DNA of 44,980 nucleotides from positions 1 to 44,980 of IMG/VR virus record IMGVR_UViG_3300028883_000072; one strand, given 5' to 3'. Every line of letters starts with the position of its first letter. Within the stretch, counting starts at the first letter, position 1. Both the position numbers and the translations under genes were made by a program. Under the pieces are notes generated by a model. That model saw nothing but the letters and a program-made list of their open reading frames with translations, was not told the DNA's origin and searched no databases. Shown piece by piece: positions 26,088 through 27,854 of this stretch. The DNA is from a virus.

Positions 26088-26144
26088 ATGTGGCACTACT
26101 TGAACGACGACTCAGAACTCTGCATCTGTTCGCAGGTAGCTTGA
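26088..26144 (+). CDS. 18-residue leader peptide candidate
   Basis: AAAGGAG lies a few bases before ATG 26088. The peptide is MWHYLNDDSELCICSQVA, and its TGA overlaps the -35 box of the next promoter. The ribosome site is good, but the ORF is too short for composition to support it. It could be a regulatory leader ahead of the HNH gene or a chance reading. Confidence 0.3.
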   Translation: MWHYLNDDSELCICSQVA

Positions 26145-26168
26145 CTAATCGCGCAAGCCTTGTATAGT
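26141..26168 (+). promoter_or_regulatory. Promoter upstream of the HNH gene
   Basis: -35 TTGACT (26141-26146), a 16-base spacer and a good -10 TATAGT (26163-26168), followed by AAGGAGG six bases before ATG 26191. Confidence 0.6.
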
Positions 26169-26190: not shown

Positions 26191-26604
26191 ATGGCGAATG
26201 TGCGAAAAGACTACAGCAAGGCGGTGAAGCTGTATGAATCGGGTCTGTCAATTGGCGATGTCGCGGACTACTACGGGATGACAAGACAGGGCATGTGGGA
26301 CATCCTTCGTCGCAGAACAAGCCTTCGTCCACAGAAGCGGATTGGCAGCCAGAACCATTTCTGGCGCGGCGGAACGCGAGCTTCCGACCAAGCGCAGAAC
26401 CTCGCAGAGAAGGCCCTGCAACGCGGCGTGATCGCGCGGCCTGGAACTTGTGAGAAGTGCGGGAAGGCCGGCACGTTCTCAGATGGAAGGACGGCAATCC
26501 AAGGCCATCATGACGACTATAGCGAGCCGCTCAAGGTGCGCTGGCTTTGCCAGGTATGCCACCACGAATGGCACAAGCGACACCGAGCAAAGGGCACAAA
26601 GTAA
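26191..26604 (+). CDS. HTH plus HNH-like zinc-finger nuclease (137 aa)
   Basis: An N-terminal helix-turn-helix (AVKLYESGLSIGDVADYYGMTRQGMWDILRRRT) resembles recombinase/invertase-type HTHs. The C-terminal half has CEKCGKAGTF, then IQGHHDDYSEPLKVRWLC and VCHHEWHKRH, the zinc-bound HNH-like layout of small phage proteins often annotated as HNH endonucleases. It lies directly upstream of the broken methyltransferase, and its TAA overlaps a downstream ATG (TAATG). Possible roles are a homing endonuclease or a restriction partner; catalytic competence is not certain. Confidence 0.7.
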   Translation: MANVRKDYSKAVKLYESGLSIGDVADYYGMTRQGMWDILRRRTSLRPQKRIGSQNHFWRGGTRASDQAQNLAEKALQRGVIARPGTCEKCGKAGTFSDGRTAIQGHHDDYSEPLKVRWLCQVCHHEWHKRHRAKGTK

Positions 26605-27854
26605 TGGGGTGGTCATGTATACCTTGCACTTATTCGCAGGAGCCGGAGGAGGAATCCTCGGAGACATACTCCTTGGGCACACTCCAATCGGAGCTGTCGA
26701 AATTGAAGAGTATCCCCGACGAGTTCTGCTGCAAAGACAACTTGACGGGATTCTTCCGGTCTTTCCCATTTGGGACGACGTTACGACGTTCCGCGCCGAC
26801 AACCCAGAAACCGCAGGATTCTTTACCAGAGCAAAGGAGGTGTCAAGGGAACTCGTCGTATGCGGCGGGTTCCCGTAGCTGTGCCAAGACATTAGTGCTG
26901 CAGGGAGAGGTGCAGGGCTGGAGGGCAAAAGGTCGGGGCTCTGGTCGGAAATGGCGAGGGTGGTCAGCGAAGTTAGACCTCGATACGTCTTCGTGGAAAA
27001 TAGCCCAATGCTTACCGGACGAGGACTTAACGTCGTGCTTATGGACCTGGCCAAGCTGGGGTATGATGCGCGATGGGGTGTGTACTCCGCTGCCGACGCC
27101 GGTGCTCCACACCTGCGGAAACGGATCTGGATTGTGGCCGACTCCGACAGCGTCTGAGGAAGTACAGGCAAAGCGCCTTGGCGGCTGCCAAGAGGTCTAC
27201 ATTGACACTACTGGAAAACCGCGCAGAAGGATGCCGACAGGAGGAAGCGCGAGTATGGGTTTGGGGAAGATGGCAGCAACTGGCATGTGGCCGACGCCGA
27301 CAGCGTCCGCCGGCGGGCCAGAGCCGGAAGGAAGGACGGGTCGGAAGCTGGCAACGGTAGTGGCGAAATGGCCGACGCTGACAGCGCAGGATGCGAAGAA
27401 CAACGGATCCCCGTCGCAGATGCAGCGGAACTCGCTGCCGCTGAATGCGAAGGTGAAGATGCTCCCGACGCCTCGGTCGGAGGACAGCCAGTGTGCGGGA
27501 GGGCACAGGGGGAGGGACGATACGCTCTACGGCATGGTCTGCAAGCCGAAGAGTGGCAAAACGGGATCCCCTGGCCAACTGAACCCGACGTGGGTGGAAC
27601 TTCTCATGGGCTGGCCTGAGAACTGGACTTGTCTCGACCCGCTACAATGCAGGTGGAATGGTCAGGAGACATGGCCAGAAGACTGGGAGGATGGAGTTCC
27701 GCGCATCGCAACCGGTGTCAAGGACCGTGTGAGCAGATTGAAGGCCATTGGCAACGGCCAAGTTCCAGCAGTGGCGGCGCTCGCATGGCGGGAACTTAGC
27801 CGCAGTTCCACAGTGCCGTACCGTCCACTTGACTTATTCTCTTGGAACCCGTAA
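26604..27854 (+). CDS. Overlapping-frame ORF with methyltransferase C-terminal (target-recognition/motif X) sequence
   Basis: A 416-residue frame opens at ATG 26604 (TAATG overlap with the HNH stop, AAAGGG upstream) and is uninterrupted. Its first 120 residues look like an out-of-frame reading of the methyltransferase. From about 26966 it reads like the variable C-terminal region of phage C5 methyltransferases: DLDTSSWKIAQ, WPSWGMMRDG, repeated WPTPTAS, QLNPTWVELLMGWPENWT, and finally RVSRLKAIGNGQVPAVAALAW, which is motif X. A working enzyme would need the upstream frame joined to this one by a frameshift. It could be a translated remnant or separate subunit; coding is uncertain in the first half. 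Confidence 0.5.
   Translation: MGWSCIPCTYSQEPEEESSETYSLGTLQSELSKLKSIPDEFCCKDNLTGFFRSFPFGTTLRRSAPTTQKPQDSLPEQRRCQGNSSYAAGSRSCAKTLVLQGEVQGWRAKGRGSGRKWRGWSAKLDLDTSSWKIAQCLPDEDLTSCLWTWPSWGMMRDGVCTPLPTPVLHTCGNGSGLWPTPTASEEVQAKRLGGCQEVYIDTTGKPRRRMPTGGSASMGLGKMAATGMWPTPTASAGGPEPEGRTGRKLATVVAKWPTLTAQDAKNNGSPSQMQRNSLPLNAKVKMLPTPRSEDSQCAGGHRGRDDTLYGMVCKPKSGKTGSPGQLNPTWVELLMGWPENWTCLDPLQCRWNGQETWPEDWEDGVPRIATGVKDRVSRLKAIGNGQVPAVAALAWRELSRSSTVPYRPLDLFSWNP
26615..27157 (+). pseudogene. C5-cytosine methyltransferase, N-terminal and middle parts, interrupted by TAG in motif IV
   Basis: The frame from ATG 26615 reads YTLHLFAGAGGGILGD (motif I), then RADNPETAGFF and ELVVCGGFP, and hits TAG at 26876-26878. 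The same frame then resumes CQDISAAGRGAGLEGKRSG, RPRYVFVENSP (motif VI), LGYDARWGVYSAADAGAPHL with RKRIWIVAD (motif VIII), ending at TGA 27155-27157. The catalytic motif should read PCQ; here six bases (TAGCTG) sit between the Pro and Cys codons. TAG is used as an ordinary stop elsewhere in the genome, so this is probably a knocked-out gene or a sequencing or strain variant. The target-recognition part lies in another frame (next entry). Confidence 0.85.

Follow-up and report, generated by a model that had tools for sequence, protein, structure and literature searches.

The catalytic junction of a phage methyltransferase

The window, meaning the whole stretch of DNA analyzed, comprises positions 1–44,980 of the viral record IMGVR_UViG_3300028883_000072. 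The piece examined (26,605–27,854) lies directly downstream of an HNH endonuclease gene and carries the two halves of a C5 DNA methyltransferase gene, one reading frame (frame A) of which is interrupted by six bases, here called the gap. The features are:

26191–26604, + strand: HNH endonuclease gene, 137 amino acids with HTH and HNH; its TAA overlaps the ATG at 26604; matches phrog_2340 (endonuclease, E = 1.2e-17) and phrog_8446 (HNH endonuclease, E = 1.6e-9)
26604–27854, + strand: frame B as a whole, 416 amino acids, stop-free over the methyltransferase; reads the six bases in frame as Arg-Ser
26615–26878, + strand: methyltransferase 5′ half in frame A, from the start through motif I (FAGAGGG) to GGFP, closing at TAG; phrog_363
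26835–26840, + strand: Shine-Dalgarno (SD)-like AGGAGG, 6 nt 5′ of the hairpin, recognized by sequence
26847–26874, + strand: hairpin of 12 bp with a 4-nt loop, predicted by RNA folding; its 3′ arm encodes Gly-Gly-Phe and extends into the proposed take-off codon
26873–26875, + strand: proposed take-off codon CCG (Pro), a codon enriched among gap genes
26876–26878, + strand: stop codon TAG, proposed to occupy the A site at take-off
26879–26881, + strand: proposed landing codon CTG, of the class YYN
26882–27157, + strand: continuation of frame A with the catalytic Cys and motifs IV–VIII (PF00145), closing at TGA
27063–27854, + strand: C-terminal part of frame B, with a WPTPTA-type TRD, LNPTWVELLMGWP (motif IX-like) and motif X (AIGNGQVPAVAA); phrog_1008 (E = 5e-29) and phrog_363 (245–313)

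Frame A, which opens at ATG 26615 on the + strand, reads MYTLHLFAGAGGG...VVCGGFP to position 26875, meets TAG (26876–26878) and CTG (26879–26881), and continues in the same frame as CQDISAAG from 26882. The six bases TAGCTG (26876–26881) therefore separate the Pro of the PCQ motif from the catalytic Cys, exactly as the earlier note on this DNA had described. Each flank is recognizable as a C5 methyltransferase by itself, the upstream one through phrog_363 (E = 1.3e-11) and the downstream one through Pfam PF00145 (E = 1.8e-20) and phrog_363 (E = 1.3e-30). Motifs I, PCQ, ENV-type VI, VIII and X are all found piecewise with PF00145 and phrog_363, with Pro and Cys split and motif X in frame B.

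Beyond the gap, frame A runs from CQDISAAG to IWIVADSDSV and ends at a second stop, TGA 27155–27157. The catalytic part lies in frame A and the TRD and motifs IX and X in frame B (+1), the two overlapping at 27063–27157. Because the C-terminal third is in frame B, a full window enzyme additionally needs a second polypeptide or a frameshift; this part is probably either a separate beta polypeptide or reached through frameshifting. The same layout, A then B, occurs in homologue L051, which also has the second frame A stop, and in gp42/43 of Arthrobacter phage RedFox and gp35/36 of Streptomyces phage Heather. It resembles the division of M.AquI, in which motifs I–VIII are on one polypeptide and IX–X on another (PMC3404938), although M.AquI lacks a gap between Pro and Cys.

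Recurrence of the gap and its sequence rules

A search of viral contigs for GFP-N6-CQDI returned 33 matches. Of these, 22 are genuine methyltransferases, each with a stop codon at the beginning of the six bases, an event expected by chance in 3/64 per match. The other 11 were chance matches and were discarded, as were L190 and L193 from a variable-gap search. For the CQPF form, with a stop required in the pattern, 29 loci were found in viral contigs, all of them methyltransferases. Variable-gap searches, together with an HNH-based search that was blind to the junction, contributed gaps of 7, 8, 9 and 15 nt. Removal of copies left 60 distinct phage methyltransferases, with gaps of 6 nt (n = 45), 7 nt (n = 8), 8 nt (n = 1), 9 nt (n = 5) and 15 nt (n = 1); no gap consisting of the stop codon alone was seen among the collected genes. 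The proportion with a stop in the whole set (58/60) is biased, since several searches demanded one, and the 22/22 figure is the unbiased one. As the 60 genes are related, the p-values given below overstate independence.

The earlier note had asked whether the insertion is unique among related phage genes, and these 60 show that it is not. Since dozens of independent contigs have the same feature, we reject assembly error; recurrence likewise rules out random decay. The nearest relatives of the window's 5′ half carry TAGCTT (L091), TAGCCC (L092) and TGACCT (L094), and a further close relative, L093, is ungapped and reads GGFPCTDIS. Intact genes such as L093 occur as relatives, not as a corrected form of the window sequence. 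The CQDI form was absent from 84,980 bacterial and archaeal species genomes, where all five matches were due to chance. Every phage isolate record inspected, including eight isolate regions, lacks the gap, which is consequently known from assembled contigs only.

All three stop codons are used at the gap and interchange. In a subfamily without an HNH gene (L161, L162, L171, L179 and L186), the gaps are TGACCA, TAACTA, TAGCTG, TAACTG and TAACCA: the identity of the stop varies and the stop is kept. Other arrangements can be seen in TGA-CCA, TAG-CTG, TAAT-CCA, TGAG-CCG, TGA-TAA-CTG and TGAGGAAAATGA-CCA. Two loci are unusual, L218 (3426–3453) having an odd gap, GTAAGCCC, with no stop immediately after Pro, and L215 (3477–3500) reading CGA TGA CCT, with the sense codon CGA preceding the stop. 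By eye, no shared peptide that might act as a nascent-peptide signal was seen beyond the methyltransferase motif.

At every gap length, the triplet preceding Cys fits NYN (all 60 genes), and in 55 of 60 it also fits YYN. Its middle base is C in 38 and T in 22, never A or G, and none of the 22 changes at this position is a transversion; its third base is A in 29, G in 20, T in 9 and C in 2. CCN accounts for 26 of the 60 triplets and most of the rest are CTN or TCN, with ACA, ACG or GCG in five. The Pro codon before the stop is also restricted, as CCG is used by 40 of 60 gap genes versus 12 of 79 intact ones (p = 5e-10) and CCC by none of 60 versus 27 of 79. Watson-Crick or G·U pairing allows the tRNA-Pro anticodon (NGG) to read YY; CTN, TCN and TTA would need G·U pairs, and ACA, ACG and GCG a mismatch at the first base. 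Decoding by the UGG isoacceptor would agree with both the order of third bases in the landing codon (A>G>T>C) and the lack of CCC among take-off codons.

The 60 nt 5′ of the gap fold far more stably in gap genes (mean −24.7 kcal/mol) than in 93 intact homologues (−14.4 kcal/mol), and against a null of synonymous codons the mean z is −3.52 versus +0.34 (p = 2e-23). The structure is a single long hairpin whose 3′ arm, GGNTTYCC, encodes Gly-Phe-Pro and ends within the take-off codon. Its arms covary: position −7 is C-G in 29, G-C in 26, U-A in 3 and U-G in 1, and positions −10, −13 and −15 also vary with pairing preserved. These pairs were read from each sequence's own fold, which favors paired calls; the pooled DNA alignment is not structure-aware, so per-sequence pair tables took the place of a consensus fold. 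The window hairpin has −17.5 kcal/mol for 26848–26875 (z = −4.8). Just 5′ of the hairpin, mostly 4–8 nt ahead of it, AGGAG or GGAGG is present in 45 of 60 gap genes but only 3 of 93 intact ones (p = 5e-22). No signal of RNA structure was found 3′ of the gap. As in T4 gene 60, a stop directly follows the take-off codon, and a stem-loop and an SD-like sequence lie upstream.

HNH endonucleases, probable retention of the enzyme and alternative readings

The HNH protein encoded upstream in the window shares 43–57% identity with those found inside other methyltransferase genes that have the gap. When searches were based on the HNH protein, most full-length matches sat within a methyltransferase gene, usually in frame and directly before xDIxxGGFP-stop. 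The HNH gene thus lies in or next to its target gene and has a patchy distribution, as is characteristic of homing HNH cassettes. In the window, part of the methyltransferase start is duplicated ahead of the HNH gene (RTLHLFAG near 26113–26136; 26089–26160 compared with VALLERRLRTLHLFAG at 26615–26643), an arrangement suggesting that the element may have inserted at motif I and brought a new 5′ end with it. L134 and L223 carry, on the left border of their HNH insert and just 5′ of its ATG, a perfect short inverted repeat (CTTGACA-CTG-TGTCAAG), the right half of which is similar to the target's Cys-Gln codons. In L209 (2833–4197), whose Pro and Cys codons are also separated by TAACTG, the same HNH family is found inside the TRD part, in frame with frame B. 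We also considered a self-splicing intron and rejected it: no Rfam intron family, group I included, matched at seven loci or in the window region, and excision of the HNH segment would still leave the six bases.

Apart from the gap, most of these genes keep the full methyltransferase sequence between motifs I and X, as L139, L160 and L162 illustrate. In the closest pairs of the window subfamily, omega is about 0.15–0.26 upstream and 0.20–0.25 downstream of the gap, values that the overlap with frame B may distort; in the L162 group it is 0.07–0.15 upstream and 0.10–0.30 downstream. Across most close pairs it is 0.07–0.34 on both sides, indicating purifying selection. Upstream values for pairs with and without HNH are not comparable, because the aligned stretch mixes HNH and methyltransferase codons. 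As purifying selection acts on both halves, the methyltransferase is probably still made despite the gap. Of the suggestion in the earlier note that so precise a position reflects selection or escape rather than random decay, selection at this position is borne out and random decay is rejected.

On a tree of 95 methyltransferases, in which many forks are weak, the gap is scattered, and a minimum of 12 changes is required for it, 21 for the stop and 32 for the landing codon. In the window subfamily, the 5′ halves are alike (DNPET...ELVICGGFP) and the 3′ halves are scattered among intact genes, as would be expected if gene conversion moves the 5′ half together with the gap.

Could the HNH element simply have killed the methyltransferase, leaving a pseudogene with the six bases as a scar, a relic of the original CCN? 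HNH genes within or beside many copies would agree with this, the landing codon could derive from the original Pro codon, and the window's frame A has a second stop at 27155. However, that stop is common to L051, and RedFox and Heather share the split layout; selection persists on both sides of the gap in genes that are complete apart from it; the stops interchange yet persist; the middle landing base has undergone no transversion in 22 changes; and hairpin and SD are strongly enriched among gap genes. We consider loss of the gene very unlikely. Of the healed insertion scar raised as a possibility in the earlier note, the involvement of an HNH element holds; the gap itself is most likely neither a passive scar nor a knock-out but part of a conserved recoding element.

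Slightly less probable still is readthrough, in which an amino acid would be inserted at the stop, so that the catalytic Cys is preceded by two extra residues (X-P/L/S). It would account for the 45 of 60 gaps that are exactly 6 nt and in frame, but nine gaps, 7 or 8 nt long, have lengths not divisible by three, so that readthrough could not restore the frame there. Moreover, some gaps contain two stops (TGATAA, TGATGA), three stop types interchange, two extra residues in the Pro-Cys loop are expected to abolish catalysis, and the NYN rule would be left without an explanation. Reassignment of TAG or a suppressor tRNA was rejected: no tRNA gene was found in the window, TAG is an ordinary terminator there (10 of 27 long ORFs), and the gap uses all three stops.

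A hairpin preceded by an SD can function in translation initiation. It is conceivable that translation terminates at the gap and that these elements restart it near the Cys codon, giving an enzyme in two pieces; the third landing base followed by TG would supply NTG, with the preference A>G>T>C. This NTG, however, is one base out of frame (−1), and its frame runs for a median of 15 codons before a stop; moreover, the codon before Cys in the Cys frame is CCN, CTN or TCN, mostly not a start. We regard restart as highly improbable.

Frame B, the overprinted +1 frame, is itself conserved. It is stop-free over 175 codons in 67 of 67 intact homologues, where synonymous shuffling predicts 1.1, and 99 control ORFs had no comparable effect. 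In these homologues, its ATG overlaps the methyltransferase start (xTGAATGAG), with AAT in 67 of 67 versus 47% of Asn codons in these genes. In those of the homologues L011–L090 that were read, frame B begins 4 nt after the methyltransferase start and ends near its stop. PHROG 1008 matches frame B, and the annotation of Paenibacillus phage Shelly includes a "g55 internal gene." That frame B alone is the functional gene, with the window's frame A a relic, would fit its 416 open codons, its constraint in homologues and its preservation by the six bases, but is just as improbable as restart, since L139 frame B closes immediately past the gap while frame A is complete, gaps of 7 or 8 nt put frame B out of register too, and hairpin and SD point to recoding of frame A. 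The open frame B stands as a separate observation and leaves the gap unexplained.

A proposed stop hop and its relatives

We consider it quite likely that the gap is a mobile programmed translational bypass, or "stop hop," at the Pro-Cys junction of the methyltransferase. A ribosome would translate the 5′ half to the Pro of GGFP and, with peptidyl-tRNA-Pro on CCG and the stop in the A site, would not terminate. Instead, the tRNA would dissociate from CCG as the upstream mRNA closes into the hairpin, the 3′ arm of which takes in some of the take-off codon; closure could pull the mRNA, as proposals for T4 gene 60 have it (PMC5009743), and the SD-like sequence 5′ of the hairpin may hold the ribosome. 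The tRNA would then re-pair with the YYN before the Cys codon and decoding would restart at Cys, such that the nine bases CCG TAG CTG yield one Pro and Pro-Cys is restored. It is probable that the gap originated, and has since spread, together with an HNH endonuclease of the homing type whose target is the conserved coding site for GGFP-CQ: a gap at this site would make the gene resistant to cleavage, and bypass would preserve the enzyme. Comparison of sequences shows the gap and its recurrence, the rules for stop and landing codon, the hairpin, the SD, purifying selection and the link to HNH genes; the hop and its efficiency, homing at a GGFP-CQ cleavage site and cleavage resistance we infer.

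The bypass of T4 gene 60 also involves a take-off codon, a stop, a 5′ stem-loop and an SD (PMC5009743, PMC11194080), and the HNH homing endonuclease MobA is linked to the split gene 60 (PMC2988022, PMC5009743). The methyltransferase gap shares with gene 60 and MobA the take-off codon followed by a stop, the upstream stem-loop, the SD-like sequence, a landing codon and a linked HNH gene. Unlike gene 60, the gap is 6–15 nt rather than 50, the take-off codon specifies Pro rather than Gly, and landing is often only G·U-compatible, whereas gene 60 and most synthetic hops have matched take-off and landing codons (PMC5009743). Also unlike gene 60, it interrupts a methyltransferase catalytic motif, has its HNH within the same gene and occurs in many lineages; its design is separate.

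Synthetic stop hops work in constructs (Weiss et al., 1987, as summarized in PMC5009743); like the reading proposed here, they turn nine bases, codon-stop-codon, into one amino acid. The byp elements of Magnusiomyces mitochondria are short inserts that are bypassed, with codons that do not always match and independently of mRNA context (PMC5009743). The methyltransferase gap is likewise a short insert with imperfect codon matching, although byp elements reside in yeast mitochondria. An HNH element within a phage DNA methylase gene has a parallel in the ShiLan domain, a hidden HNH in a mycobacteriophage methylase gene that behaves as a homing element and is neither intron nor intein (PMC11855218). 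Unlike in the gap genes, this HNH lies in another frame and the methylase frame is stop-free; a bypass is not known to have been proposed for it.

Knowledge of natural ribosome bypass comes largely from T4 gene 60 and yeast mitochondria; according to a 2016 review, in-frame stop hopping had no known occurrence in nature (PMC5009743). If our reading is true, the methyltransferase gap would be the first in-frame stop hop known from nature, and no other natural bypass outside yeast mitochondria would be as widely distributed. Since gene finders split gap genes or label them pseudogenes, similar cases may be hidden elsewhere. The 60 natural variants, which differ in gap length, stop, landing codon, hairpin and loop, would reveal the rules of take-off and landing from evolution, and the idea that homing elements rescue their host genes would be testable in dozens of variants.

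Finally, it is likely that the active-site codons of phage C5 methyltransferases harbor a widespread family of mobile bypass signals, each comprising an SD, a 5′ hairpin, a Pro take-off codon, a stop and a YYN landing codon, which have spread with HNH endonucleases. Such genes would show how a homing endonuclease can target the most conserved codons of an enzyme and yet be tolerated.
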